Shown in pieces: positions 2,438 to 17,406 of a DNA stretch of 34,842 bases. Source of the DNA: Verrucomicrobiota bacterium (GTDB lineage Bacteria > Verrucomicrobiota > Verrucomicrobiia > CAIQCK01); the NCBI GenBank assembly GCA_016219905.1, contig JACRKA010000115.1:1-34842 (forward strand). The letters run 5' to 3'. The notes under the pieces are model-generated. The model saw only the letters and a list, made by a program, of their open reading frames with translations, did not search any database and was not told the origin of the DNA. Made by a program: the position numbers and the translations under genes. The first letter of the stretch is position 1. Each line of letters starts with the position of its first letter.

Positions 2438-4543
2438 TCACTCCTTGCGCCGGCGAAGATGGTAGGTCGGCAGCATCCCGTAGCCTTTCGGCAACGGCGT
2501 TTGCCCGGCGTAATCACACGCGAAACCCGCCGCGCCTTCCGCCGCCGCCAGCGCCGCGAACGCCTGGCTCGCATATACCTCGCCGGGCGGCGCGATCGGC
2601 TCCATCCGTGCTGCGCGCGTCACGTGATTGCCCGTGAAGTTTGTCTGGCCGGCCACCGGGTCGCGGCACTCGTAAACCGGCCCGGCATGGAGCGCGATCC
2701 GCAGGCTCAACCCTGCCGGTAGCCCGTGCGCGGCCCAGTCCGTCTCTCCAACCAGCCCGGACAGGTCCAGCGCGAAAAGCCCCGCGTCGCTCACCGAATT
2801 GAACACGAAGTAGAGGCCGTCGCCCCACGTCGCCTTCAACACTGGCGCATCGGGCGACCGCGCAATCAGCCCGGCCACCGCGCCGAGGAAGTGACGGACG
2901 AATTTCGGGATCTCCGGCTCGCCCAGCTTGCTGAACCCGACCGCGTCCGCGAACAGCATCGCCATGATCCGCGCGCCGGATCGTTTCGCGCGTCCCGACG
3001 AGCGCGCGGCAGTCTTGCCGGACGCCACCGGGGCCATCGTCGTGCCGAGTTGTTCGGCGCGGATGGCCGCCAGCCCGCTCACCAACCGGCCCGCGTAGTC
3101 CTGTGCGATGTCGCCGATGGCCAGCTTGTGCTCCGAGGCCGTGACCACTTGCGCCGCGCGGTCGAGCGCCCGCTCCAGCCGCGCGGCCCACCGCGCGCCG
3201 TCAGCAGACGCCATCGCGTCGCGCAGGAAATCCTCCCGCCGATATGGCAGCACCACGCACAGCTCGTCGCCCCGCTCCAGCACCGCCTCCGCGAAGAGCA
3301 CGTTCAGGCCGCAGCCGGCCGTGACGTAGCCGAACCCGCACTGGAGTTGCTCGAGCTGCTCCTGCATGGCCCGCAAAGCCGCCCGCTCTGCATCCGCCCT
3401 CAACGGCCCGCCCGCGCCCGCTCCGGCAAAGGCCGCGACAGTCGGAATCCGCAGCCAGTTCTCGACGAGGCCACGATTCAGGCCCAGGCTCTCGACGATC
3501 AACTGCGCGTTCCGGCGCGTGGATTGCAGGTCGCCGTAACGGCCGTGGCTGGTCGCGAGGGCTTGCCCATACCAGTCCTCCGCCTCGGCGAGTTCGCGCC
3601 GGACCAACGCCGCTTCGCCCAGCGTCGCCAAGGTCCAATACGCGTCGCCGCCCGCGCCCTTCAGCCGCTCCAACTCCTGCACGCACTTGCCGCGCACTTC
3701 CAGCGCGAGCGCCGCGGCCTTGTCCCTGTCGCCGACCAGCAACGCCATCGTCGCCGCGTTGATGCCCGTCCAGTAATCGCCCGTGCCCTCGTAGGCCCGG
3801 CCATAAACCTCCGCCGCTTTGCCGAGATGCGCCTTGCGCGTTTTCTTGTCGGAGGCGGCCAGCCCCAAATCCTTGCAGGTGCGGGCCAGGATGCCGAGCG
3901 TCTCCGCGTCGCGATGGCCTTCCTTCTCCAGCTCGCGCAGGATCGCGTTGGCTTTTTCCGAGGCGCCGCTGCGGGCCAGCGCGAGCGCCTGGAGCTGGCG
4001 CAGCCGCGCGTCGCGCGTCGCGCTCTTCAAGCCCGCGGCGATGACATCGTAGGCGAGCAACGGCTCGCCGAGCCGCAGGATGCGGCCGCCCAACTGCGCA
4101 TAAACCTCCGGCGCGCCCGACCACACCTGCTCGTCGCGTGAGTGAAAGAGTTTGAGCAGTTCCACCAGCGTGAGCGACCGGGAGGTTTGAAGATGGCGGA
4201 GGACCCTCGTTGCCTGATTGTCCTCCGTCGTCAGCGGGCGGGGCGGCAGGACGGCCCGCCCCGGCGGCTGGAGGGTGAAGCCCAGGGCCAGGATGGCCCT
4301 GAGGGTCTCCATCGCGGTGTTGCGGTCGTATTGCTTCTCCGATTCCGACAGCGCCTCGTAGGGGATGAGGCTGGGATGTTCCTTCTTCTTGTCGTCACGC
4401 CGCGGGCCAAGCTTCCACCCCTCGGCCATGCGCAGCCGCGCCCAAGTCTCGTGCGCGTTGCGGGCCAGCAGTTCCGTGAGCCGGGCAACGGTGTCGTCCA
4501 AGGCGATCTTGGAAGTGTCTATGGGTTGCGGTTCGTAGGGCAT
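2438..4543 (-). CDS. RyR - TPR/DUF4071-like - SLOG-like - class III nucleotide cyclase fusion protein
   Basis: 701 residues, no signal peptide. Residues 15-95 match the prokaryotic RyR domain (NAHETWARLRMAEGW, HPSLIPYEALSESEKQYDR). Residues about 145-350 are helical TPR-like repeats of the DUF4071 (TRAFs-binding-like) type. Residues about 395-475 (FGYVTAGCGLNVLFAEA, LCVVLPYRREDF) resemble the Rossmann-like SLOG ligand-sensing fold. Residues 525-700 form a class III adenylate/guanylate cyclase domain with metal Asp533 (FADAVGF) and Asp575 (WGDG), Lys570 at the usual adenine-contact position and Arg646. The usual transition-state Asn is Thr642. The likely reaction is NTP to a cyclic nucleotide, switched by the sensor domains. 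The start at 4543 has GAGGGG upstream; earlier in-frame starts would run through the cyclic-nucleotide-binding gene. The product base and the triggering signal cannot be told from sequence. Confidence 0.88.
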   Translation of the reverse strand: MPYEPQPIDTSKIALDDTVARLTELLARNAHETWARLRMAEGWKLGPRRDDKKKEHPSLIPYEALSESEKQYDRNTAMETLRAILALGFTLQPPGRAVLPPRPLTTEDNQATRVLRHLQTSRSLTLVELLKLFHSRDEQVWSGAPEVYAQLGGRILRLGEPLLAYDVIAAGLKSATRDARLRQLQALALARSGASEKANAILRELEKEGHRDAETLGILARTCKDLGLAASDKKTRKAHLGKAAEVYGRAYEGTGDYWTGINAATMALLVGDRDKAAALALEVRGKCVQELERLKGAGGDAYWTLATLGEAALVRRELAEAEDWYGQALATSHGRYGDLQSTRRNAQLIVESLGLNRGLVENWLRIPTVAAFAGAGAGGPLRADAERAALRAMQEQLEQLQCGFGYVTAGCGLNVLFAEAVLERGDELCVVLPYRREDFLRDAMASADGARWAARLERALDRAAQVVTASEHKLAIGDIAQDYAGRLVSGLAAIRAEQLGTTMAPVASGKTAARSSGRAKRSGARIMAMLFADAVGFSKLGEPEIPKFVRHFLGAVAGLIARSPDAPVLKATWGDGLYFVFNSVSDAGLFALDLSGLVGETDWAAHGLPAGLSLRIALHAGPVYECRDPVAGQTNFTGNHVTRAARMEPIAPPGEVYASQAFAALAAAEGAAGFACDYAGQTPLPKGYGMLPTYHLRRRKE

Positions 4544-4616
4544 GGCCCCTCGTGTTCGGGCTGGCCGGCCAATCCGGCCGCGCCGAGTATAGGACAGCCC
4601 CGGCTTTGCTGCCACC

Positions 4617-5072
4617 TCAAGTCTGCGCGCTGCCGCGCGCGCGGGTCTCGGCGGCGACGAGGCGTTCGACGGCGGTGCGGAGCAACACCAGCGCGGCCTC
4701 GGGGAACCGGAGGAGGAACGACCGGAAGCGGGTGTAGTCGAGCGATACGAGCGCAGCGTCGGTCTCGGCTTTGAGGGTCGCGCTGCGGCCACGGTTCAGG
4801 AACATCCCATACTCGCCGATGATGTCGCCGGGGCCGAGCGTGCGCACGGGCTGTGTCTCGTCCGGCAGGAACACGGCCAGCCGGCCCTCGCCCACGACAT
4901 AGACCCGGTCGGAGGGGTCGCCCGCCTGGAAGAGTGTCTCGCCGGCGCGCAGCCGCTCGGTCTCCATCATCTCGGCGAGCAGCGCGCGGTCGGCGGGGGG
5001 AATGCCCGCGAAGAGCGGACAGGTGCTCAGGGTGCGCGTCCGCGCAGCGACGGTGAGGGCGGTGGTTTTCAT
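4617..5072 (-). CDS. Stand-alone cyclic-nucleotide-binding domain protein
   Basis: 151 residues of Crp/Fnr-type cyclic-nucleotide-binding (cNMP) domain and nothing else: no HTH and no membrane segment. The beta-roll runs over about 18-115 (CPLFAGIPPADRALLAEMM, DRVYVVGEGRLAVF). The phosphate-binding cassette at 86-100 keeps the two ligand-contact residues, Glu87 (GEYG) and Arg96 (RGRSATL), so binding of a cyclic nucleotide is credible. Its ATG overlaps the TGA of the ABC transporter gene by 4 bases (ATGA), which suggests translational coupling. The cyclase gene begins 73 bases downstream. The simplest reading is a receptor for the neighbouring cyclase's product, acting on the ABC protein or on the TIR protein. 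That link is inferred from position. It is not a transcription factor in the usual sense because a DNA-binding domain is missing. Confidence 0.9.
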   Translation of the reverse strand: MKTTALTVAARTRTLSTCPLFAGIPPADRALLAEMMETERLRAGETLFQAGDPSDRVYVVGEGRLAVFLPDETQPVRTLGPGDIIGEYGMFLNRGRSATLKAETDAALVSLDYTRFRSFLLRFPEAALVLLRTAVERLVAAETRARGSAQT

Positions 5073-7633
5073 GCGTGCTTGATCGTCCTGCGGAAGGTCT
5101 CCGAGGTCTGTTGGAGTTCCTTGAACGTGCCCGCGGCCACCAGCCGGCCGCCTTCAATCAGCCGGATCTCGTCGGCGGCCTGGATGAACTCCACGTCGTG
5201 GCTGACGGCGATGACGATGCGATCCTTCTTCCACTCTTGCAGCAGCACCGCCACGGCCGCGCGGCTGGCCGGGTCGAGCGCCGAGGTCGGTTCGTCAATC
5301 ACCAGCACGGGTGTGCGCCGCAGCAGCGCGCGGCAGAGGGCCACGAGCTGGCCCTGGCCGCCGGAGAGGTTGCCGCCGAGCCGGCCGATCTTGAACTCCA
5401 GCCCCAGTTGCGTGAACGCGTCCTTCAGGCCCTCTTGCTCGACGAAGTCCAGGACGGCCCGGTCCGCCAGCCGACTGCTGCGGCTGTTGCGGACGTCCAC
5501 GACGCCGAAGATGAGGTTCTCGCGCCACGTGAGGTGCGGATGCACGCGGTCGCTGGCAAACGGCAGGCACGCATCGCCGAGCATCTGCTTCAAGTGTTCC
5601 GCTTCCGCCGCGAAAAGATGCCTGCCATCGGGCTTGAGCAAAGCGGCTGTCTCTTTATCGTCGGCCAGCTCGACCGCTGAGGCTGTCAGCGCCACGATGC
5701 ACAGCGACAGCGCCTGGTCGGGTGACAGCGCGGTCTGCTGGAGGGCTTCCAAGTTCGACGAGCGCAGACGCCAGAGGCCCTCGTCGAGGGGATACGGGGA
5801 CAGTTGGCAATAGACGTGGTAGTTCGCGATGCCGAGGAGCTGGCGGTTTCCTTCGAGGAGTCCCCGCGCCAGCGCGACCAGCGCGCTGCCCAGCGGCGTC
5901 TGCGGCAGCGAGTGGAGTTTCCGCCGGCCCGCCTTGCCGAGCAACAAGGCCGCCACCCGCTCGCGGTCGCACCGGCCGGCGAGCAGGCTTTCCAGCACCC
6001 AATGCCCGCGGTCGGCGTGTCCTTCTTCGAGGGGCAGGACGACGACCTCGCAGGCCTCGCGCAGCCGTTCGCGCAGACGATGTCGCGCGGCGACGATGGC
6101 TTGCGCGATGGCCGCATGGCCGTCCGGCGTTCCCGGCGACATGTCGAGCGCCTTGAGGCGGCAGACGCGGCCCAAGCCGGTCCGCTCGATCACGCTCATG
6201 TCTTCCTCAGCCAGCGGCGCGCCTTCGGCGGCGGCCCCGTCGGCGGCGGGCCGGCCGAAGAAAAGGTTCTGGCGGATGCTCGCGTCGAGCAACGCGATGG
6301 ATTGCGGCATGAGGGAGAAGATCGCCGCGCGGTCGGTCCCCGTCATGGCGTCGAGCGGCGTCTGGCCGTAACGGGCGCTGCCGGCCTGCGGTTTCAACCG
6401 GCCGAGCAGGAGTTTCAGGAGCGTGGACTTGCCCGAGCCTGCGCCGCCGACGATGGCGGTCCATCGTCCGGGGGCGAAACTCGCGCTGACATCCACCACG
6501 CCGCCCTGCTGGGTTCCGTCGGGGCTGGTGTATCGGTAGGTCGCGCGCTCGATGTCAATCGCCACCGCCGGTTTCGCGGACGCGGCCGCCACGGGGCCGC
6601 CGCTCACGGTTTCCTGCGCCTCGTATTCGAGCAGGCGATTCATGCTGGCCCGCGCGATCTGGAACTCGAGCCGGAGGAAGACCAGTTCGGACGCGTCGCG
6701 GAACAACTCCGGCAATGCCCAGACCACGACGGGCACGAGCGCGAGGGCGGCGCTGGCGTTGGCGTTGGCGGCCTTGCGCATGTAAACGACGACGAGGATC
6801 ATCGCGATGAATGCGAGCAGGTAGGCGATGACGTTGGCGAGCCGCAGGCTGCTGTTCAGCCGGATATACTTCAAGAACGTCTCGCTCCTCCTGCCCAGCA
6901 GGCCCGTGAAGTGGTCCCGGATCTTCTGGTAGAGATGGCCCACCTGCACCTCCGGCGCGGCCCGCAGGAAATCCTCGAAGCGCGACTTGATGCGGTCATC
7001 CTGCTCCAGGTAATGCTCGTCCATCTCCTTCACCGGCCGCGTCGCGCGCATCGTCCAGAGCGCGCCGGCGACGCAGGCCACCACGCCCACGACGGCCAGG
7101 CGCCAATCCCGGATGAAGAAGAACGTGAGATTGCCGGCGAGCAGCAGCGCGCTCCACCAGACCTTCATGAGATTGGAGCGCCGGTCGCTGACGCGGTAGA
7201 GGTCCACGGCGAGCCGGTTGACCGTCTCTGCGGGCGAATGCCGGCTGAAGAACGAATCGTCCTTGTTCAGGAGGTTCAGCAGGATTTCCGTCTCCAGATC
7301 GTCCCGCGCCCGGATGCCGAGCCGGCCCGTGGCGAATGTCTTCCAATACTCCACAAAGCCCGAGACCAGCCGCACCGTGATGAAGGAGACCAACGCCAGC
7401 AGCGGCAGGCCGAGGTGGAATTGCTCCGCAAGTTTCGTCAACAACGCGGCCGCGCCCTCGCCGCCATGCTCCGATTTCTCGCCGCCGCCGAGCGACAGCG
7501 TCAGCAGGCCCAGCAGGTCGTTCTGCGCATACGTCAGGGCCGAGGCGAGCGTGCCGGCGACCATGAGTTCCGCGAGGCAGGCGCGGTAGCGCGAGTGCCA
7601 CATCGCAAACCAGGAATCGAGCCGTGATTTCAT
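5069..7633 (-). CDS. ABC exporter, fused membrane and ATPase domains, ATPase domain divided by a long insert
   Basis: 854 residues. Membrane segments spread over about 20-310 are followed by an ATPase domain with Walker A GGAGSGKST (396-404), Q-loop Gln444 (LMPQS), signature LSGGQ (756-760), Walker B LVIDEP (777-782) and switch His812. From Walker A to signature there are about 350 residues against about 100 in ordinary exporters. The extra stretch, roughly 461-700, ends in a second copy of a post-Q-loop motif (IRQNLFFG at 453-460, LTWRENLIFG at 701-710). It therefore looks like two merged ATPase halves or a duplication that gained an insert. The gene overlaps the upstream radical SAM gene and the downstream cyclic-nucleotide-binding gene by 4 bases each. 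I saw no N-terminal C39 peptidase domain, so it probably exports an already processed product. The cargo is unknown; the neighbouring peptide is the natural candidate. Confidence 0.92.
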   Translation of the reverse strand: MKSRLDSWFAMWHSRYRACLAELMVAGTLASALTYAQNDLLGLLTLSLGGGEKSEHGGEGAAALLTKLAEQFHLGLPLLALVSFITVRLVSGFVEYWKTFATGRLGIRARDDLETEILLNLLNKDDSFFSRHSPAETVNRLAVDLYRVSDRRSNLMKVWWSALLLAGNLTFFFIRDWRLAVVGVVACVAGALWTMRATRPVKEMDEHYLEQDDRIKSRFEDFLRAAPEVQVGHLYQKIRDHFTGLLGRRSETFLKYIRLNSSLRLANVIAYLLAFIAMILVVVYMRKAANANASAALALVPVVVWALPELFRDASELVFLRLEFQIARASMNRLLEYEAQETVSGGPVAAASAKPAVAIDIERATYRYTSPDGTQQGGVVDVSASFAPGRWTAIVGGAGSGKSTLLKLLLGRLKPQAGSARYGQTPLDAMTGTDRAAIFSLMPQSIALLDASIRQNLFFGRPAADGAAAEGAPLAEEDMSVIERTGLGRVCRLKALDMSPGTPDGHAAIAQAIVAARHRLRERLREACEVVVLPLEEGHADRGHWVLESLLAGRCDRERVAALLLGKAGRRKLHSLPQTPLGSALVALARGLLEGNRQLLGIANYHVYCQLSPYPLDEGLWRLRSSNLEALQQTALSPDQALSLCIVALTASAVELADDKETAALLKPDGRHLFAAEAEHLKQMLGDACLPFASDRVHPHLTWRENLIFGVVDVRNSRSSRLADRAVLDFVEQEGLKDAFTQLGLEFKIGRLGGNLSGGQGQLVALCRALLRRTPVLVIDEPTSALDPASRAAVAVLLQEWKKDRIVIAVSHDVEFIQAADEIRLIEGGRLVAAGTFKELQQTSETFRRTIKHA

Positions 7634-9030
7634 CCGACGAGCGCGGCCTCCCTGCCGGTCAGTTCAACCACCGCGGCGGCGCGGCGGCCATTGCGTTTGA
7701 CGTTGTGGGTCGCCCATTCGCGGATGCGGTCTTTGATTTCCTGGAGATGGCCCTCGCAATAACGCATCGCTTCAAATTGTCCCGGCTGGAACAGCCGGAT
7801 GTGGGGACAGCCGCCATCGCATTCCGGCAGGACCGGACACTGGATGCATCGCGGGTCCTGCAACCAGTCATAGACCAGCCACGGCACCAGGTTCGCGAGT
7901 TTCACCGGGCTGCCCGGCTCGATGGAGCCGTAGGCCCGTTCCGCCATGCCCACGTCTTCGGTGCATTTGAAAAGCCGGCCGTCCGGGCCGATCACCATGT
8001 TGAAGCGCGTGGTGGCGATGCAGCCCACCTGCGTCGGCCGGAAATCGGTCCCCACGGGCAGGCCCAATGCCCGCGCTTTCGGCCGTTCCCGCGCCACGAT
8101 CCGCGCATAGGCCGGGTAAGTCATCGCCGCAAAGCGCCCGCGCCCGCCACATTCCGGGTCGAACACATACGCGAAGAAGACCGTTTTCAGATGACGGTGC
8201 AGCCCGCGCCGGAGCAACTGGCCGTAAAGCGCATCGAACCCGGCCTTGTCATCGCGGACGACGTTGACGCGCAGATACACCGCCAGCCGCTGCGCGGCGA
8301 ACGCCAGGTTGTCCAACACCTGCTCTGCCGTCTCGCGGCCCTGCCGGTCGCGTTTCTCCGACGCGGGGATGTCCACCGTCACCTGCATGAACTTCAGCCG
8401 GCACTTGCGGAGCAAGCGGACGACATCCCGGCTCAACAGCATCCCGTTGCTGACGAGGACGGCCGAGTATTTCACGCCGGCCTGGTCGCACGCCGGGATC
8501 AGCCGCGCGCTGATGCGGGCGATGGCCTCGGCGGTCAGCAACGGCTCGCCGCCAAACCAACACATCTCCAAAGCCCGCTTGCCTCGCGCAGCCATGGCGA
8601 TGTGGCGGACGATCTCCTCCTCGCGGTCGCGCGTCAGCGTCTTGCCATGCCCGGCCGCTTGGACGCCGCTTTCAAAACAGTAGCGGCAGCTCAGGTTGCA
8701 GGCCAGCGTGGGCACGACGGTCACCCCCAACTTCCCGGCATCGAAACGCGCCGCCTGGTCGCGCAACCGGACCATATCGAGTTCATTGACTGCCTTGGAC
8801 ACCAACAAGCCCTTCGAGCACAGGAGGCTCAAGTCTTCGGAGGAAGTTTCGGGACGTGTCGGAATCGCGCAGCCCGCCTTCAGGTAACGACGCCATGTCG
8901 GGGCATTGACGACGACCAAGGAGCCGGTGAAGGTGTTGAACACCGCCTTGCGGCCGCGCGGAAGGTCCACCGCCATGTTGAACCGCGACGGAACCCATCC
9001 GTCCGCGGAAGATTCAAACCCCTTGCTCAT
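7630..9030 (-). CDS. Radical SAM/SPASM peptide maturase (copy 1)
   Basis: 466 residues from the ATG at 9030; a TTG at 9036 is an alternative start. The N-terminal ~95 residues (WVPSRFN, FNTFTGSLVVVN) resemble the lead-in of peptide-modifying SPASM enzymes. The radical SAM cluster motif CNLSCRYC gives Cys111, Cys115 and Cys118, followed by FGGEPLL. The C-terminus carries SPASM cysteines for auxiliary Fe-S clusters (VGCIATTRFN, FKCTED, CIQCPVLPECDGGCPH). Such enzymes use S-adenosylmethionine to install thioether, C-C or similar crosslinks in ribosomal peptides. The gene lies directly downstream of a small precursor-like gene and overlaps the ABC transporter gene by 4 bases. It is clearly paralogous to the enzyme at 12714-14153: the two align along their whole length, down to PSRFN, FNTFTG/HNTFTG and GGCPH. 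There is no convincing Shine-Dalgarno. Substrate assignment is inferred from position. Confidence 0.92.
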   Translation of the reverse strand: MSKGFESSADGWVPSRFNMAVDLPRGRKAVFNTFTGSLVVVNAPTWRRYLKAGCAIPTRPETSSEDLSLLCSKGLLVSKAVNELDMVRLRDQAARFDAGKLGVTVVPTLACNLSCRYCFESGVQAAGHGKTLTRDREEEIVRHIAMAARGKRALEMCWFGGEPLLTAEAIARISARLIPACDQAGVKYSAVLVSNGMLLSRDVVRLLRKCRLKFMQVTVDIPASEKRDRQGRETAEQVLDNLAFAAQRLAVYLRVNVVRDDKAGFDALYGQLLRRGLHRHLKTVFFAYVFDPECGGRGRFAAMTYPAYARIVARERPKARALGLPVGTDFRPTQVGCIATTRFNMVIGPDGRLFKCTEDVGMAERAYGSIEPGSPVKLANLVPWLVYDWLQDPRCIQCPVLPECDGGCPHIRLFQPGQFEAMRYCEGHLQEIKDRIREWATHNVKRNGRRAAAVVELTGREAALVG

Positions 9031-9110
9031 CGTCAATCTTGCAGCAACCCATCACCCCGCGCACCACCACGACAGCCATGCTCGGATCCGGCCCGGCCCA
9101 GCCTCATCAC

Positions 9111-9160: not shown

Positions 9161-9388
9161 TCAACCGCGCACGCCGCCAATCGCGCTCGGGCTGCAATAG
9201 CGATGCCCCCAGCACTGCCCCTCGACCTCATCGGTCCCGACGGCGCTCAGGACTTTGGCCACGTCCTTGATTGAAAGCTTCTTCTTGCCCTTCAGGACCG
9301 TTCCCTCAGGGAATACCAGTGTGACGCAGTTCGATCCGTCCGCGACAACCCGGACCGATGTTGTTTTTTTGATGGCTTTCTTGCTCAT
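9161..9388 (-). CDS. RiPP precursor-like peptide 1
   Basis: 75 residues: a lysine-rich N-terminus, a beta-like stretch (VTLVFPEGTVLKG), a helix-like stretch (LSIKDVAKVLSAV), then a cysteine-containing C-terminus. It shares 55 of the first 60 residues with the peptide at 14263-14499 and the last seven (AIGGVRG), but residues 61-68 (GHRYCSPS) replace an unrelated 11-residue stretch. A conserved leader with a diverged core is the hallmark of RiPP precursors. GAAGGAG lies upstream of the ATG at good distance, and a radical SAM/SPASM enzyme follows about 130 bases downstream on the same strand. Cys59 (GQCW) and Cys65 are candidate modification sites. Leader cleavage may fall near VEGQ. No family name is recognised; the RiPP role is inferred from pattern and context. 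Confidence 0.85.
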   Translation of the reverse strand: MSKKAIKKTTSVRVVADGSNCVTLVFPEGTVLKGKKKLSIKDVAKVLSAVGTDEVEGQCWGHRYCSPSAIGGVRG

Positions 9389-9629: not shown

Positions 9630-10370
9630 ATGAAGCGTTCTCCCAAACTGAAGCTGGACCCGAAAAACTACTTTCGCCTCTCCAACGGACTCCTGCTGGC
9701 TGCTCCGCCGGAAGTCCCCTTCCGGGACATGTTCTCCGAGGTCTTCGAATCCGGCTGCTACCGGCCTTCTGCTGAGTTCCGAATCAGGCCACGCGATACC
9801 GTGCTTGATGTGGGCGCGAACGTCGGACTGTTCTCGATCTGGGTGGCATCGAACGTCCCTTCGGCGCGCATCTTCGCGTTCGAGGCCGCGTCGGACAATT
9901 TCCGGGCGTTGGCCGGGAACATCCGGAGCAATCGGCTCAAAGGCATCTCGGTTCACCATTACGCGGTGTCGGATGGCAGCAGCAAGCATGTGACCCTCTA
10001 CCGCGGGTTCCACGGCGGGATTCATTCCATCCGGCCGGAATACCGGAATTGGGATTCCCCGGCGGGAAGGCCCCGCAGGACCGAGAGGGTCCGCGCGATC
10101 ACGCTGGAGCGGATCTTCTCCCGGTTCAGAATCAAGACGGTGGATTTCCTGAAACTCGATTGCGAAGGCGCCGAATACGACATCCTGCTTTCCACACCGG
10201 GCAGAACTCTCTCCCGGATCCGAAAGATCGTCGGGGAATACCACGACCTCAGCGCGAAGCGGCACGGGGGCGTGTTGAAAGAGTTCCTGACAAGAAACGG
10301 GTTTCGGACCGAGTTCAGGGCCGCGGGGCGGGACACGCCGTGGGGAATGTTCGTTGCGACTTTCCGCTGA
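9630..10370 (+). CDS. FkbM-family S-adenosylmethionine-dependent methyltransferase
   Basis: 246 residues, no signal peptide. The SAM-binding motif is VLDVGANVGLFSI (58-70), followed by an acidic strand end (FAFEA), and the family-typical VDFLKLDCEGAEYDILL lies in the second half. The C-terminus ends in a WGMFVATFR strand, so the domain appears complete. FkbM enzymes mostly O-methylate hydroxyl groups of natural products, sugars or lipids. The gene is divergent from precursor 1 and is followed 28 bases later by the unusual radical SAM gene, so the pair is probably one operon. A tailoring role on the local peptide is inferred from position only; a role in surface sugars would fit the family equally well. 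There is no clear Shine-Dalgarno. Confidence 0.85.
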   Translation: MKRSPKLKLDPKNYFRLSNGLLLAAPPEVPFRDMFSEVFESGCYRPSAEFRIRPRDTVLDVGANVGLFSIWVASNVPSARIFAFEAASDNFRALAGNIRSNRLKGISVHHYAVSDGSSKHVTLYRGFHGGIHSIRPEYRNWDSPAGRPRRTERVRAITLERIFSRFRIKTVDFLKLDCEGAEYDILLSTPGRTLSRIRKIVGEYHDLSAKRHGGVLKEFLTRNGFRTEFRAAGRDTPWGMFVATFR

Positions 10371-10398
10371 GCCGCCGCGCGTAAGCCCCCAAAAATCC

Positions 10399-12162
10399 AT
10401 GATCCAATCCATCGTATTGCCGGGCCGGTTTCCGACCACCTTCTACGCCTACCCGGAGTTCACGCTGCTCAACCGGAGGATTCAGGATAAGGTCCGGTTC
10501 GAGAACCTCAACCTGCTTTTCTGGGAGTATCTATTCTCCACGGACTTCCTCGGGTTTCTGCGGAAGCAACTTGGCAGGGCTGCATCCCCGCAGATCAAGT
10601 TCCTCTCGACCGTTGTGGACTCGGGCACCATCGCCACGCTCCGGGACCGGAAATGTTTCTACGACCCGGAGCGATACCTCTCCGCCATCTCCTGCCTCGG
10701 CGGATATTTGGCCGTGGCCTCCAACCTCTTGCGGCAATTCAGCGGCCGGAATCTGGAGGGACTCTCGGTTTACGGCCTGAGCTACGACATGCGGCGTCCC
10801 TTCGGGGAGGTCTTGGCCTACGCGCGGAGCGAACGGAGTCCGGTCATGGATTTCTACCGGACGCGCTCGAAGCTGATTCGAAAACTCTTCGCCACCGATA
10901 TCGTCAGCGCCGTGACCTACAGCTACACCGATATCCTGCACCTCGGCATCCTGTGCGACCGATATCGGCGGCCCGGCGCCACCGTGCTCATCCACGGCCA
11001 CAGTTGGGAGAACAACGCCATTGATTACCTGATCGAGCACAGCGGCCAGTATGCCGACCTGCTCCGGCAAATTGACGGGATCGTCATTGCGGAGGAGGGC
11101 TTGGCCGAGACGTTCAACCAGCTTGCTGAAACAGGAACGACGGCGGGGATTCAGAATCTGCACCGGTTCGGCGACGGGGCCGTATCCGGCGGCGGCAAGC
11201 AGAGTCGCCGACGCAACGCCGTTGATGACCTAAACTTCGCGCGCCTGCGCCAGGAGGCGGAGCGTCAACGCCCGAAGATATTCTCTCCTGAACTGGTGAC
11301 TCTGCACCGGCTCTCCTCGCGAGGTTGCTACTGGAGCCGGTGCGCCTTCTGCCGGCACAACAGCCGGCACAGCGGTCGAGCCAGCGATCCGGACGAGGAG
11401 CCAGAGAATCCGTCCCAGTGGACAGCCAGCCTGCGCCAGCTTTCGAAGATTTCCCCGGTCCTCGTCTTCTGCGACCAGGGGATTGACCCGGAAGCCGCGG
11501 CGGCGTTGGCCGCCTCGGCGCGCGACGCCGGCATCACGGCCAAGTGGTCGCTTCGGACGCGGATGGATCCGCGCTGGGATGCCCGGCGCATCGCGGCGGT
11601 GGCCCGCGGAGGGTGCGCTGAGCTGATCTTCGGCTTGGAATCCATCAACAACGCCACCCTGCGCCGGATGAACAAGACGCCACTGACCGGCAAGGCTTAC
11701 CGTTCACTGGCGGAGCAGATTCATCGCGATGCCGCGGCCCGCGGCATCTACAACCACTACTGCATGATCTACGGCTACCCGGGCGAGACGTATACAGAAT
11801 GCCGGCGAACCCTCAACTTCCTGGCGGACCTCATCCGCGACGTCCCCAAGACGACCTTCAGCTTGAACCGATTCCAGCTCCTCTATAAGTCGGACGTCTT
11901 CAACTCGCCAAGAACTTACGGCATGCGTTCAGTGACCAAGGCGCCGATGCTGTCCAACATGTTCTGGTATGACGAACCGAAGAGCCAGCGCAGCATCGAG
12001 CGGGTGGAGAACGGACTCGCCGGCTTCTATCGGGCCATAGGCTACCGCGAGGACATCGTTGCAAACCCGATACTCATGCAGACACTGCCGGGTTTCATCA
12101 ACGACAGCGGCCATGCGCCGTTGCTCAAGGCAGGTCATCGGGGAAATCCATTCATGGCGTGA
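10399..12162 (+). CDS. Radical SAM enzyme with cobalamin-domain-like N-terminus and CX4CX2C cluster
   Basis: 587 residues from the ATG at 10399. Residues about 165-245 (DIVSAVTYSYTDILHLGIL, ATVLIHGHSW, IDGIVIAEEGLAETF) follow the layout of the B12-binding Rossmann domain of class B radical SAM enzymes, though no DxHxxG motif is present. The radical SAM domain starts at SSRGCYWSRCAFC: Cys310, Cys315 and Cys318 are spaced CX4CX2C rather than CX3CX2C. It continues with WSLRTRMDP, LIFGLESIN and YGYPGET. The style recalls the RiPP maturation radical SAM proteins that carry a longer first cluster spacing (RGCWWG type). The likely chemistry is methylation or rearrangement at unactivated carbon. It follows the FkbM gene by 28 bases. 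The 3' neighbour is the convergent small gene at 12355-12525. The substrate is unknown. Confidence 0.85.
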   Translation: MIQSIVLPGRFPTTFYAYPEFTLLNRRIQDKVRFENLNLLFWEYLFSTDFLGFLRKQLGRAASPQIKFLSTVVDSGTIATLRDRKCFYDPERYLSAISCLGGYLAVASNLLRQFSGRNLEGLSVYGLSYDMRRPFGEVLAYARSERSPVMDFYRTRSKLIRKLFATDIVSAVTYSYTDILHLGILCDRYRRPGATVLIHGHSWENNAIDYLIEHSGQYADLLRQIDGIVIAEEGLAETFNQLAETGTTAGIQNLHRFGDGAVSGGGKQSRRRNAVDDLNFARLRQEAERQRPKIFSPELVTLHRLSSRGCYWSRCAFCRHNSRHSGRASDPDEEPENPSQWTASLRQLSKISPVLVFCDQGIDPEAAAALAASARDAGITAKWSLRTRMDPRWDARRIAAVARGGCAELIFGLESINNATLRRMNKTPLTGKAYRSLAEQIHRDAAARGIYNHYCMIYGYPGETYTECRRTLNFLADLIRDVPKTTFSLNRFQLLYKSDVFNSPRTYGMRSVTKAPMLSNMFWYDEPKSQRSIERVENGLAGFYRAIGYREDIVANPILMQTLPGFINDSGHAPLLKAGHRGNPFMA

Positions 12163-12354
12163 CCGGACGTCACCCATTTCGGCGAGCAACCGGTTTCGAC
12201 ATCCGCGCTGCCGGTCTCGCAACTATGCTGCAGGTGTCGCGCTGGCAGAGCACGAATCGCCGCCAGCGCGGGAACCGTCTCTGCCGGGCCAGGCCCTGAT
12301 CCCGTTCTGCAACCTCAGGCGACAGCCCTCTCTACCAAACTCAACCCGACTTTC

Positions 12355-12525
12355 CTACAGGCAGCTTGCCCAAAGGGATTTCTTGGACATGCAGATTTGG
12401 CCCGCCACGTCTGCTGGCGCTTTCTTAGAGCCTTTTTCAAACTGCTTCTTCGTGATCTTGTATTTCTTCAACACGGTTGCCGGGATCTCGTAGTATGTGT
12501 TTTTTGACTTTATGAGAATTGACAT
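12355..12525 (-). CDS. Short AT-rich precursor-like peptide 3
   Basis: 56 residues: MSILIKSKNTYYEIPATVLK opens a lysine-rich leader, then come KKYKITKKQFEKGSKK, ADVAGQIC and a short C-terminus with two cysteines and a tryptophan (LWASCL). AAGGA sits upstream of the ATG, and a near-consensus promoter is 51 bases further up. Its GC content is far below its surroundings (23 of 60 bases GC over 12421-12480). It shares with precursors 1 and 2 a TVLK element in the leader and a V-x-G-Q motif directly before the first core cysteine. It is divergent from the radical SAM/SPASM gene at 12714, the probable partner. No known family is recognised. Promoter, Shine-Dalgarno, leader/core layout and context together make a real gene likely; its modified product is inferred. 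Confidence 0.8.
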   Translation of the reverse strand: MSILIKSKNTYYEIPATVLKKYKITKKQFEKGSKKAPADVAGQICMSKKSLWASCL

Positions 12526-12575
12526 GATTCTTCCTTCACAAGTTTTTCCAGTTGCCAGTTCCTATCACGACAAGG

Positions 12576-12604
12576 TAGTTATGATTTCTTGGGTGCCATG
12601 TCAA
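12576..12604 (-). promoter_or_regulatory. Strong sigma-70-type promoter for precursor 3
   Basis: On the minus strand TTGACA (12604-12599), a 17-base spacer and TAACTA (12581-12576). Transcription would start near 12569, leaving a leader of about 44 bases with a good Shine-Dalgarno. It is the best promoter match in the peptide region. The remaining bases up to 12713 show no clear promoter for the divergent enzyme gene. Confidence 0.65.
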
Positions 12605-12713
12605 GAACTGAGCGACGCAGGGCCGGGTAACAGCGCGCTGCTTGCGAATAAATGCCGAGTGAAGTTCGCGAGTGGACAGTTTTGCGCGCTTGCAGATGGA
12701 CGGAGAAAACAAA

Positions 12714-14153
12714 ATGCGACAGAAAGAGACGCCCACCGCCGTTTTCGAGGTTGCAGGCAGGAATTCTGCGATCTCACTACCACCGCCTGCCACAATCTCA
12801 AAGGCACTTGAAGCGCTTGGGGAAACGTGGATTCCTTCCCGGTTCAATGTCACGACAGCGCTGCGGGGCAGCCGAAAGGCGATCCATAACACGTTCACTG
12901 GCGCGACGGCAGTTCTGAACCACCGTAGTTGGCAACGATACCTTCGGTCTGGTTTTGAATACCGTCTTTCTGGACAGCCAGTCCCGGAACAACTGCAGGC
13001 TCTTTACTCAAGAGGCTTCCTCGTATCGAAGGACGTGGATGAGGTTGAACTGGCTCGATTCCACTACCTCGCGTCACGTTTTGACAGGGACACTCTCAAC
13101 GTGACCATGCTTTGCACGTTGGCCTGCAATCTGTGTTGCGCCTACTGTTTCGAAGGTCAAGCACAAGCAGACCATCGCGGCACCACGATGTCCAAGGAGA
13201 CAGAGGAGGCGGTCGTTGCCCACCTGAGCAGAGCAGTTCGCGGCAAAAAGGGGCTGTCCATCTGGTGGTTCGGAGGAGAACCGCTTCTCACGATGGGGCC
13301 TATGGAAAGAATCAGCTCCCGACTCATCCGGATCTGCAAGAAAGGCGGCATTCATTATACCGCCATGATCGCAACCAACGGCACGTTGCTGACGCGCGAT
13401 GTCATAAAACAACTGCGCCGATGGAAGGTCGCATCTGCTCAAGTGACGCTGGACATTCCCAGAGCAGCGAAGCGGGATAAGCATGGCCGTGAGACTCAGG
13501 AGAAAGTATTGGACAACCTGTGCCTCGCCGCTGGGAAACTCAAGGTTCATCTCCGAATCAACCTATCAAAGGACAACGAAGCAGAGTTTGACCGATTGTA
13601 TCGCGGGCTGATCCGAAGAAAGCTTCACAAAACCTTGGATATGGTGATGGGTATTGCCCACGTCTTTGCGCCAGAGCGCGGCCGCCTTGGTTGCACAGTT
13701 TGTCCGGTTGGACACCAATCATACGTGCATGTCTTGGCGCGCGAGCACGCCAAGGCGGCAGCGTTGGGCCTGCCTCTCAGAGAATCTCTCGTGTCGTCGC
13801 CGGGCGGCGGTTGCTCGGCGACTCGCGAGTCGGCCGTGGTGATCGGTCCTGACGGACTATTGTATAAATGTGTCGAGGACGTTGGGCTGGCCAACCGTGC
13901 GTATGGCTCTGTGTTCCTTGAAGACTTTGTGAAGCCCGGCAATCTGCTTCCGTGGTTGACATACGATTGGTTCCAACACGCCATGTGCAAGGGCTGCCCT
14001 GTGTTGCCGCAATGCGCGGGTGGCTGTCCGCACAGGCGGCTGTTTCAATCTGGCAGTCTCAAGGATGAGGATTTCTGCTATTGGGACATGCGGGGCGATT
14101 TGGAGGACCGAATTCGTAAACACGCCCTCGAAAAGGAGGCGTCAGGGGTCTAA
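12714..14153 (+). CDS. Radical SAM/SPASM peptide maturase (copy 2)
   Basis: 479 residues from the ATG at 12714, chosen because GGAG stands 8 bases upstream; in-frame ATGs at 12672 and 12696 lack such a site. After a ~125-residue N-terminal part (WIPSRFN, HNTFTGATAVLN), the cluster motif CNLCCAYC gives Cys138, Cys142 and Cys145, followed by FGGEPLL. The SPASM region has GGGCSATRES, YKCVEDVG and CKGCPVLPQCAGGCPH. It is paralogous to the enzyme at 7630-9030 over the full length. It has an insertion with two extra cysteines (GCTVCPVG) where copy 1 has CGG. GC content is lower than in copy 1 (for example 31 of 60 over 13321-13380). It lies between the divergent precursor 3 and the convergent precursor 2, so either peptide may be its substrate. 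Confidence 0.92.
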   Translation: MRQKETPTAVFEVAGRNSAISLPPPATISKALEALGETWIPSRFNVTTALRGSRKAIHNTFTGATAVLNHRSWQRYLRSGFEYRLSGQPVPEQLQALYSRGFLVSKDVDEVELARFHYLASRFDRDTLNVTMLCTLACNLCCAYCFEGQAQADHRGTTMSKETEEAVVAHLSRAVRGKKGLSIWWFGGEPLLTMGPMERISSRLIRICKKGGIHYTAMIATNGTLLTRDVIKQLRRWKVASAQVTLDIPRAAKRDKHGRETQEKVLDNLCLAAGKLKVHLRINLSKDNEAEFDRLYRGLIRRKLHKTLDMVMGIAHVFAPERGRLGCTVCPVGHQSYVHVLAREHAKAAALGLPLRESLVSSPGGGCSATRESAVVIGPDGLLYKCVEDVGLANRAYGSVFLEDFVKPGNLLPWLTYDWFQHAMCKGCPVLPQCAGGCPHRRLFQSGSLKDEDFCYWDMRGDLEDRIRKHALEKEASGV

Positions 14154-14212
14154 GAGATCTGTGGGCGTCGCTGCTTGAGCGCATTCGTCTGAATGATTGG
14201 CCCGCTGGCCAT

Positions 14213-14262: not shown

Positions 14263-14499
14263 TCAACCGCGCACGCCTCCAATCGCGGTTGGCGTGCGCA
14301 CAGATCCAGATCTATGTAGCCAGCACTGCCCCTCGACCTCATCGGTCGCCACGGCGCTCAAGACTTTGGCCACGTCCTTGACCGAAAGCTTCTTCTTGCC
14401 CTTCAGGACCGTTCCCTCGGGGAACACCAGCGTGACACGGTTTGATCCGTCCGCGACGACCTTGACCGACGTTGTTTTCTTGATGGTTTTCTTGCTCAT
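14263..14499 (-). CDS. RiPP precursor-like peptide 2
   Basis: 78 residues. The first 60 differ from precursor 1 at only five positions (A5T, R13K, C21R, I40V, G51A), and both end in AIGGVRG. Residues 61-71 are LHRSGSVRTPT instead of GHRYCSPS, so this copy has a single cysteine, Cys59 in GQCW. It follows the radical SAM/SPASM gene at 14598-15878 by 98 bases on the same strand, whereas precursor 1 precedes its enzyme. GGAAGGA stands about 14 bases upstream of the ATG and a second AAGGAA is immediately adjacent to it. The gene looks like a duplicate of precursor 1 with a new core. It could be made by either the adjacent enzyme or by copy 2 at 12714-14153. Function inferred. Confidence 0.85.
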   Translation of the reverse strand: MSKKTIKKTTSVKVVADGSNRVTLVFPEGTVLKGKKKLSVKDVAKVLSAVATDEVEGQCWLHRSGSVRTPTAIGGVRG

Positions 14500-14597: not shown

Positions 14598-15878
14598 TCA
14601 CGCGACCTCATCGCTGAAGAGCGCCTGGATTGACTTCAGGCACTTCGGGTGGGACTGCCGCAGCAGCCGATGCGTGATCGCCGCGCGCGCGAATTGGGCG
14701 CGCATCAGGTTGCACCAGAGTTTCTGCGTGACGCCGGTGCGTCCCGATGGCATCAGCGCGCACTTCTGGCATTGGAACGAGCAGCCGCCACCGCACCACT
14801 CGTATGCCCAGCACTGCGCGCACTCCGGGTCCGGCGGTTGCGCGGGCCGGAGAATACGCAGCGGCGCGGCGGGATCGAGCGTGGCGCAGTTGCCAAGCGG
14901 CGGGACGGCGGCCTGCCCGTAAAGTTTCGGGCACGGGTAGATGTCGCCCCGCGCGTCAATGTAGATTTCGCGCGATCCGCACGCGCAAAGGCCGTCGGGG
15001 CCTTCGGGCTGCGAGGCGACCAGGCGGGCGAAGCCCATGTCCACCTCCGGGTGGCCGTTGATGGCCGACTGGAGGTAATACCCGTAAAACTTCTCGTGCT
15101 CCCGCGCCAACCGCCGCACATCCGCCGCCGACCAGTCACTCCCACGGCCCTCGCTGTCGGTGAGGTGGAGAAACTTGATCCGGCGGAACCCTGCCGCCAT
15201 CAAGCTCTCCGCGATGCCGGTCAGGTTCGTGTTGCCGGGCGTGAGCACCACTTGCGCGTCCACTTTGGCTTTCGGGCTGGCCGCGCGCAACACCTGCAGC
15301 CCGCGAAGCGCAGCCTGATGCGACCCCGCCCCGCCGGGATAGCGCCGATGGCGGTCATGGCCCCGTTGGGACCCGTCCATGCTGATCTGCACGGTGATGT
15401 CGTCGGCCACCAGTTCGGGCGCCAGCCGCGGCGTGACCAACGTGCCGTTGGTGATGATGTTGAAGTAGGGGTCCTTGCCCCGCGCGCGGCCTTCGCGGCG
15501 GAGGGTCTCGATGAGAAACCGGCCGGACTTCCAGTTGACGAGCGGTTCGCCGCCGAGAAATGAGATCAAAGGCTTCAAGCCGGGGACCCACAGAATGTAG
15601 TTGGCGATCTGCCGCGCCGCCGGCAAATCCAGGTCCTGCCGCGGCGCGCAGTTGGCAGCGTCGAAGCAGTAGGTGCACGCGAGATTGCAGCGGCCGGACA
15701 GCCGCACCATGAAGCACTGCGGCCACTGCTGCGGGCGGCAACCGCAGGCGCGTGCGCGCCGCCGCGGACGCGCGGTGTCCGGGAGCTGAAAAAACAACTC
15801 CTCCGGCTGCTTCGCAACGAGGCCGATGACGGCTTCGCTCAACTTCCCGGCGATTTTCCCCGCGCTTGTCTTTGCCAT
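14598..15878 (-). CDS. Radical SAM/SPASM enzyme of a second type
   Basis: 426 residues. The cluster motif CNLACTYC gives Cys64, Cys68 and Cys71; FLGGEPL follows. The C-terminal SPASM part is cysteine-rich (CACGSREIYIDARGDIYPC, CAQCWAYEWCGGGC, CQKC) and ends with a further LWC. The cysteine pattern and the short N-terminus set it apart from the paralogous pair at 7630 and 12714; it looks closer to anaerobic-sulfatase-maturase and peptide-maturase SPASM enzymes. It lies upstream of precursor 2 on the same strand and is divergent from the GAF-subtilase operon, with only 74 bases between starts. The likely role is a second modification of the same peptides, or a separate one of precursor 2. No Shine-Dalgarno is visible. 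Confidence 0.9.
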   Translation of the reverse strand: MAKTSAGKIAGKLSEAVIGLVAKQPEELFFQLPDTARPRRRARACGCRPQQWPQCFMVRLSGRCNLACTYCFDAANCAPRQDLDLPAARQIANYILWVPGLKPLISFLGGEPLVNWKSGRFLIETLRREGRARGKDPYFNIITNGTLVTPRLAPELVADDITVQISMDGSQRGHDRHRRYPGGAGSHQAALRGLQVLRAASPKAKVDAQVVLTPGNTNLTGIAESLMAAGFRRIKFLHLTDSEGRGSDWSAADVRRLAREHEKFYGYYLQSAINGHPEVDMGFARLVASQPEGPDGLCACGSREIYIDARGDIYPCPKLYGQAAVPPLGNCATLDPAAPLRILRPAQPPDPECAQCWAYEWCGGGCSFQCQKCALMPSGRTGVTQKLWCNLMRAQFARAAITHRLLRQSHPKCLKSIQALFSDEVA

Positions 15879-15952: not shown

Positions 15953-16618
15953 ATGGCGAAGTCAAATCCAGTCCTTGACGCGTATCTGGGCATCTCCTCC
16001 AAGACCCCGGAAGAAGCCGTGCTCCGCCTGCTCATCGAGGTGGGCGCGCAATTCGTTGGCGCCGAGGAAGGGTCGCTCCTTGTCTTCGACGAGAGGAAGA
16101 AAGACTTGGTCTTCGCCATGACCATCGGCAGCGCGGCGTCGGAGAAGACCCTGGTCGGCCAGCGCGTCCCCATAGGCAAGGGCATCACGGGACTCGCCGC
16201 GCAGACCCGCGAGGTCCAGATCGGCGCGCCCACTTTCGGCACCCGCCAGGCAAAACGCCGCGGCGCCAAGGCTGAGCCTCCCAAGTCGGTCCTCGCCGCG
16301 CCCATGCTGATCGGCGACCGGCTCGTCGGCGTGCTGACGGCGGTGAGTTTCCGGCCGGGGAAACTGTTCAGCAGCGACGACGCCCTGCTCTACGCGCGCG
16401 TGGCGGCGGTCGCCGGCGTCGTCGTGGAGCAATCCCGGCGGCTCGCGGCCGTGGAGGCTGCCCGGAAAGATGCCCGCCGCCCCCGTGCCGTCAGCGAGGA
16501 GGAACGCTGCGAACAGCAACTGGTGGACGCCGTCGCCCGTCTCGCCCGGAGCCGGCCGCAGGCGAAAGCCCGCATCGCGCGCCTGCTTTCCGACATCGCC
16601 GGGTTGGTGGCGGAATGA
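15953..16618 (+). CDS. GAF domain protein
   Basis: 221 residues, no membrane segment. Residues about 18-150 form a GAF domain (LLIEVGAQFVGAEEGSLLVFD, VPIGKGITGLAAQ, SVLAAPMLIGDRLVGVLTAV). The C-terminal ~60 residues are charged and helical without a recognisable output domain. GAF domains bind small ligands, often cyclic nucleotides, so it is a candidate receptor in a window with two cyclase-type proteins; the ligand cannot be read from the sequence. It is first in a three-gene operon, with the subtilase gene beginning 20 bases after its stop. GAGG lies about 5 bases before the ATG, and the gene is divergent from the radical SAM enzyme. Confidence 0.85.
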   Translation: MAKSNPVLDAYLGISSKTPEEAVLRLLIEVGAQFVGAEEGSLLVFDERKKDLVFAMTIGSAASEKTLVGQRVPIGKGITGLAAQTREVQIGAPTFGTRQAKRRGAKAEPPKSVLAAPMLIGDRLVGVLTAVSFRPGKLFSSDDALLYARVAAVAGVVVEQSRRLAAVEAARKDARRPRAVSEEERCEQQLVDAVARLARSRPQAKARIARLLSDIAGLVAE

Positions 16619-16638: not shown

Positions 16639-17406
16639 ATGAGCCTCCGAGCCGCACTCAAAGTCAATCTGCAGAAACTACGCTCCAAGAAACTGCGCCC
16701 CGTCACCGTGGCGGTGGTGGACAGTGGCGTGGACGCGAAACATCGGGAGCTGGCGGGGCGCGTGGTTCGCGCCGTGCGAGTGGAGAGCAGCGCGAAAGGG
16801 GATCGAATCTTCAGGAGCGCGGTCCCGCGGAACGCCGACGTCTATGGCCACGGCACCGCCGTGGCCAGCATCATTACGCAGATCGCGCCCAACGCGCGCA
16901 TCATGGACGTGCGTGTCCTTGACGCCAACAACGTCTGCACCGGCGAGACCCTGATCGCCGGCTTCCGTCACGCCATCGAGTCCGGCGCGCGGATCATCAA
17001 CATGAGCCTGGCCGCGAGCGCCAAATTCGCCGAGCCGCTGCACGAGCTTTGCCAGACCGCGTATCGGCAGAACCAGATCGTCGTCGCGTCGAGACGCAAC
17101 GTGCCGCTGACCGACGATGGTTTCCCTGCGGAGATCGCCACCTGCATCGGCGTGGACATCGGGAAGTTTCCCTCCCCGTTTCAACTGCTCTTTGCCGAAG
17201 ACCACGTCATCGAGTTCGTGGCCCACGGCGACCAGGTGGTCGTCGCCGCGCCGGGCGGCGGCCGGACGACCGTCACCGGCACCAGCTTCGCCACGCCCGC
17301 CGTCGCCGGATTGTGCGCGTTGCTGGTCGGCGCCAACCCCGACCTGCGTCCGTTTGACCTGAAGAGCCTGCTTCGGGCCTTCTCGACCAATTGCGCCGCG
17401 CGATGA
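16639..17406 (+). CDS. Small cytoplasmic subtilisin-like (S8) serine peptidase
   Basis: 255 residues that are almost only the catalytic domain. The triad is Asp28 (VAVVDSG), His71 (YGHGTAVAS) and Ser216 (GTSFATP). Asn154 (VVASRRN) sits where the oxyanion-hole Asn is expected, though the usual AAGN context is altered. No signal peptide or inhibitor propeptide is seen, so it probably acts inside the cell. Compact S8 peptidases of this kind are used in several RiPP pathways to remove leaders. Placed in a cluster with three precursor-like genes and no C39 peptidase, it is the best candidate for leader removal. Its stop overlaps the ATG of the following membrane protein by 4 bases. A general quality-control or regulatory protease role is the alternative. 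Confidence 0.88.
   Translation: MSLRAALKVNLQKLRSKKLRPVTVAVVDSGVDAKHRELAGRVVRAVRVESSAKGDRIFRSAVPRNADVYGHGTAVASIITQIAPNARIMDVRVLDANNVCTGETLIAGFRHAIESGARIINMSLAASAKFAEPLHELCQTAYRQNQIVVASRRNVPLTDDGFPAEIATCIGVDIGKFPSPFQLLFAEDHVIEFVAHGDQVVVAAPGGGRTTVTGTSFATPAVAGLCALLVGANPDLRPFDLKSLLRAFSTNCAAR

Follow-up and report, generated by a model that had tools for sequence, protein, structure and literature searches.

Introduction

Among described RiPP systems, two kinds come closest to the locus analysed here: the TIGR04463 maturases with their Cys-rich precursors, and the sactipeptide and ranthipeptide systems (CteB, SkfB, PapB), in which a SPASM-type radical SAM enzyme adjoins a Cys-containing peptide (PMC8172795, PMC9413430). 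Because of their size, precursor genes often escape annotation, as is well documented (PMC6511847). In a 34,842-nt stretch of DNA from a Verrucomicrobiota bacterium (contig JACRKA010000115.1; hereafter, the window), an initial annotation had pointed to a 56-codon frame, here called P56, as a readily overlooked small gene that pairs with a radical SAM/SPASM maturase, here called rSAM2, and our analyses support this proposal well. The features at the centre of this work are as follows (coordinates are those of the window):

12355-12525, minus strand: P56, small gene of 56 codons for a proposed RiPP precursor (ORF list, codon periodicity, start-site statistics, single-sequence model)
12526-12540, minus strand: ribosome-binding region AAGGAAGAATC, immediately 5′ of the P56 ATG (sequence)
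12570-12604, minus strand: putative promoter of the initial annotation (approximate extent), −35 TTGACA and −10 TAACTA, unsupported by scan
12714-14153, plus strand: rSAM2, radical SAM/SPASM peptide maturase (TIGR04463 similarity; motif residues in alignment)

The locus resembles the TIGR04463 systems in that a small Cys-containing precursor gene lies near the maturase, and TIGR04463 is the best NCBIfam model for rSAM2 (E=8.9e-62, 209.2 bits), with 403 of its 438 positions aligned. However, this score falls below the curated cut-off of 525 bits, and rSAM2 is thus not a member by the NCBI criterion, while the P56 leader fits no known precursor family, P56 itself matching none in an NCBIfam search. 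With the sactipeptide and ranthipeptide systems, the locus shares the adjacency of a SPASM-type enzyme and a Cys-containing peptide, whereas P56 has only two Cys in its core and no Cys-X3-Asp/Glu motif.

A short frame with coding-like composition

The minus-strand frame claimed in the initial annotation is present, starts with ATG and translates as MSILIKSKNTYYEIPATVLKKYKITKKQFEKGSKKAPADVAGQICMSKKSLWASCL. The good Shine-Dalgarno ascribed to it was likewise confirmed (AAGGAAG, within AAGGAAGAATC-ATG), and the C-terminal Cys/Trp segment, comprising C45, W52 and C55, is as described. In the layout that we propose, a leader of approximately residues 1-43, ending in DVAGQ, precedes a 13-residue core (approximately residues 44-56, ICMSKKSLWASCL). 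The count of 23 G+C in the 60 positions 12421-12480 is exact, and so low a value is rare: of the 34,783 60-mers that the window contains, only 56 are that low. Those with the least GC of all (starts 12484-12495) overlie the start of the frame.

The length of P56 is by itself uninformative, because, when 12165-12713 is shuffled by dinucleotides, an ATG frame of at least 56 codons arises in 67% of cases. That chance frames of this size are so common, together with the lack of a homologue in the genomes and plasmids searched and of a good promoter in a consensus scan, would suit a chance frame in an AT-rich divergent intergenic stretch, or a gene that has decayed; yet we regard this explanation as highly improbable, given the marks of coding that the frame bears. 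Its GC content by codon position (GC1 0.33, GC2 0.37, GC3 0.67) shows a third-position contrast that, among random ATG ORFs of at least 45 codons, just 0.02% attain, it alone among the six frames has a positive codon score when the neighbouring enzyme gene rSAM2 serves as reference, and a 56-codon ATG frame combined with a Shine-Dalgarno was found in 4.3% of the dinucleotide shuffles of 12165-12713. On account of this composition and the Shine-Dalgarno, P56 is probably a genuine gene.

The promoter proposed for it fared less well. The string TTGACA-N17-TAACTA is literally there, and its −35 element is a perfect match to the consensus, but TAACTA is identical to TATAAT at only two of six positions, and a consensus scan of 12100-12800 returned no sigma-70-type site; we therefore rejected this element as weak.

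A single-sequence model of P56 predicts a strand-strand element followed by short helices (residues 2-30) and a disordered C-terminus, with a pLDDT of ~76-83 in the strand-strand-helix leader (~80 over residues 1-30), an arrangement that would fit the leader/core layout of a RiPP precursor. A search of this fold against the PDB gave no match below E = 4, and an Rfam search of the P56 region returned nothing. The basic leader, the predicted strand-strand-helix element and the stretch TYYEIPATVLKKYKITKKQFE, which loosely resembles the AbrB/MazE swapped-hairpin motif, might instead indicate a small protein with another role, e.g. as a regulator or as an antitoxin-like DNA-binding protein. We consider this very unlikely: in Pfam searches with E up to 1, P56 matches no MazE/AbrB or other regulator family, the fold search is equally silent, the C-terminus bears Cys and Trp and is predicted to be disordered, and the gene adjoins that of a peptide maturase. 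In position, layout and coding statistics, P56 agrees with what is expected of a RiPP precursor gene, a short coding ORF that comprises a leader and a core and lies beside a modifying enzyme, its translation being predicted.

The neighbouring enzyme and the peptides beside its relatives

The divergent radical SAM/SPASM gene said to lie beside P56 was found at 12714-14153(+), and its product carries both CX3CX2C and the SPASM motif, as a radical SAM/SPASM peptide maturase does. The motifs CX3CX2C and CX13GX4C...CX2CX5CX3C...C are intact, with C138/C142/C145, C367, G381, C386, C425, C428, C434, C438 and C455 invariant in the alignment, and the Cys pattern of RumMC is closely similar (PMC8172795). 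After TIGR04463, the next-best models are those of the Clo7bot, CefB and geopeptide maturases. The TIGR04463 match starts at residue 44, and a Pfam search of residues 1-91 gave no match; the predicted structure places strands at residues 45-68, followed by helices, with pLDDT <50 in this region and a mean of 39, which is too poor for use. A scan of viral contigs for rSAM2 returned nothing.

Near most of the rSAM2 relatives that we inspected lies a small gene for a Cys-containing peptide, with varied leaders. These include peptides with nitrile-hydratase-like leaders in four genomes (G204, G193, G194, G463), peptides ending in CDSCTVCPCMICW in two rhizobial plasmids, and CefA in Methylomagnum; in two of the cases inspected, G632 and Methylovirgula, no obvious precursor was seen near the relative. 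Since the leaders of these peptides vary so much, a novel leader beside an rSAM2-type enzyme is not unusual. A Cys-containing small peptide gene also lies near rSAM1, a paralogue of rSAM2 described below, in three genomes.

The initial annotation had suggested searching related genomes for the 56 residues; no conserved reading frame was found, although the cassette described below is missing as a whole from relatives. No homologue of P56 was detected in 188 related genomes, in 387 genomes across the phylum or in 72,556 plasmids. Three weak matches among the related genomes (G137, G183 and G182; E 0.01-0.05) were rejected as chance, having no radical SAM motif nearby and overlapping other, longer frames. 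The plasmid tblastn gave matches at E ~8 only, nearly all within an oxidoreductase. As the search covered only seven genomes of the family to which the window belongs, the absence of P56 is weak evidence.

A two-gene cassette within an existing RiPP cluster

P56 and rSAM2 lie within a RiPP cluster. Besides genes for a cyclic-nucleotide-binding protein and a GAF protein, it comprises the following features:

5069-7633, minus strand: ABC transporter, probable exporter, conserved in the cluster
7630-9036, minus strand: rSAM1, conserved paralogue of rSAM2, 48% identical
9161-9388, minus strand: cluster precursor copy 1, MSKKAIKK...EVEGQCWGHRYCSPSAIGGVRG, with homologues in G005 and G006
9630-10370, plus strand: FkbM-family methyltransferase, conserved in the cluster
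10354-12162, plus strand: divergent radical SAM protein, whose stop forms the left edge of the cassette
12165-14209, no strand: cassette absent from the syntenic G005/G006 loci, GC ~55% (tblastn and blastn synteny; GC)
14263-14499, minus strand: cluster precursor copy 2, MSKKTIKK...EVEGQCWLHRSGSVRTPTAIGGVRG, with homologues in G005 and G006
14598-15878, minus strand: rSAM3, PapB-like radical SAM/SPASM enzyme, kept in relatives
16639-17406, plus strand: conserved subtilase (S8) protein at the edge of the cluster, possibly a leader protease

In G005 and G006, two genomes of the same family as the window, the surrounding cluster is syntenic, and the proteins encoded by the listed genes are 77-90% identical. 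The synteny around the enzyme at 12714-14153 that the initial annotation had suggested examining therefore holds for the cluster, but not for the pair itself: both genomes lack P56 and rSAM2 (tblastn, blastn) while keeping every flanking cluster gene. The distance from the stop of the 10354-12162 gene to the next precursor is at most ~100 bases in these relatives vs ~2.1 kb in the window, the gap in G005 also containing a partial extra precursor. DNA similarity to the relatives ends near 12165 and restarts near 14210, and the intervening ~2 kb hold P56 and rSAM2 only. The GC content of this segment is ~55% vs 61-67% in most flanking genes, though the precursor genes, at 58%, are low as well.

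Because the segment is missing from the syntenic loci of both relatives, P56 and rSAM2 together are, as far as synteny and composition indicate, a low-GC cassette that was either inserted or differentially retained. Gain of a precursor + enzyme cassette would be the simplest account, the alternative being its loss from both G005 and G006. The cassette ends bear no inverted or direct repeats of the mobile-element type, and a DNA search of plasmids for the cassette returned nothing.

The same comparison bears on whether the two genes are partners or merely neighbours. P56 could be a real precursor modified by rSAM1 or rSAM3, or rSAM2 could act mainly on the SKK...IGGVRG precursors of the cluster: rSAM1 and rSAM2 are paralogues, the precursor at 14263-14499 ends only 110 bases from the rSAM2 stop, and a V-x-GQ-x-C junction is common to P56 and the cluster precursors. 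That P56 and rSAM2 were gained or lost together as a cassette speaks against such an exchange of partners, as does the fact that rSAM1 and rSAM3 accompany the IGGVRG precursors in relatives without P56 and rSAM2, and we judge it distinctly unlikely.

P56 compared with the IGGVRG precursors

Besides the two copies in the window, the IGGVRG precursors are found at L025 (6427-6669, 6762-6908 and 9752-9985) and L026 (9641-9883 and 12737-12976). They are specific to the family, with a nearly invariant leader, a short hypervariable core after EVxGQC and an invariant tail, TPxAIGGVRG; the copies in G005 and G006 vary between GQC and IGGVRG. In G005, a tandem partial duplication of the precursor suggests active precursor duplication. 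An extra copy at L027 (6415-6642; G006 contig C27) lies on a separate contig, and no match to the other cluster proteins of the window was found in the 14 kb examined there.

P56 and these precursors are alike in a possible hairpin, P-TVLK, a Lys-rich helix and the V-x-GQ-(x)-C junction, as well as in being adjacent to paralogous enzymes. P56 is, however, 19-25 residues shorter, has another leader and lacks the TPxAIGGVRG tail. In a MAFFT alignment, the two match at TVLK, at several lysines and at V-x-GQ-(x)-C, where DVAGQ-I-C of P56 parallels EV[ES]GQ-C of the cluster precursors; one precursor copy of G005 (GQAC) likewise has a residue inserted between GQ and C. The strand-then-helix layout of the P56 model would fit the cluster precursors, too.

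Pairwise shuffle tests gave p ~0.08-0.25 (0.42 in one uninformative global setting), and P56 scored 1.3 bits against a profile of the IGGVRG precursors, a value reached by 3,092 of 20,000 shuffles. An ordered motif was matched by none of 200,000 shuffles, a result of little weight given that the motif was written after seeing the alignment. As the local, profile and global alignments are all non-significant against shuffles, the likeness is taken as a hint, not as homology.

Proposed role of P56

The best explanation, which we hold to be probable, is that P56 is a RiPP precursor whose core is modified by the adjacent rSAM2, the two genes forming a cassette inserted in an existing RiPP cluster. 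This assignment, the best available, rests on context rather than on conservation or experiment, and from that context we infer the enzyme-substrate pairing, the expression of P56, leader binding, the chemistry and export through the host cluster. The P56 leader (residues 1-~43) would be bound by rSAM2, which would introduce at least one radical crosslink into the core ICMSKKSLWASCL. The crosslink site would most plausibly be a Cys (a thioether at Cys45 or Cys55) and less likely Trp; a linkage at Trp52 (K48-x3-W52 or W52-A-S) is an alternative suggested by streptide and cyclophane peptides. The product may be exported via the cluster ABC transporter, with the leader perhaps removed by the S8 protease. 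P56 and rSAM2 would constitute a two-gene, low-GC cassette, present in this genome only and inserted so that a conserved gene of the existing RiPP cluster flanks it on either side.

The initial annotation had spoken of a second kind of precursor, and this stands as the best reading, considering that a different precursor is already present in the cluster in two copies and that two syntenic relatives lack the cassette. A bolder version, in which P56 founds a new precursor family, its crosslink is unlike known SPASM products, and a minimal mobile precursor + maturase cassette diversifies the cluster by insertion while borrowing its exporter and protease, strikes us as unlikely, though not far-fetched. 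P56 is best read as an orphan RiPP precursor within a known kind of system, with the cassette structure as its informative aspect.

Read in this way, the locus would be a concrete case of an unannotated small gene that provides a multi-enzyme RiPP cluster with a second substrate, unrelated in appearance, and would imply that such clusters can grow by gain or retention of a two-gene precursor/enzyme cassette. Because the paralogues rSAM1 and rSAM2 adjoin different precursors, leader specificity is directly testable by swapping.

Other features of the cluster

The ABC exporter-like protein (5069-7633, minus strand) is unusually long (854 aa), with two separate ATPase-domain matches in a single chain, and the divergent radical SAM protein encoded at 10354-12162 weakly resembles two families, the B12-type PhpK and the RiPP C-methyltransferases. 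The subtilase and the GAF-domain protein (15953-16618, plus strand) also accompany the cluster in both G005 and G006, with 85-90% identity, and, being so retained, may belong to it as leader protease and sensor. At the cluster edge, a gene at 2438-4792(-) with RyR, TPR-S and guanylate-cyclase-like domains adjoins that of the cyclic-nucleotide-binding protein (4617-5072, minus strand), and the two possibly form a nucleotide-signalling or conflict system.
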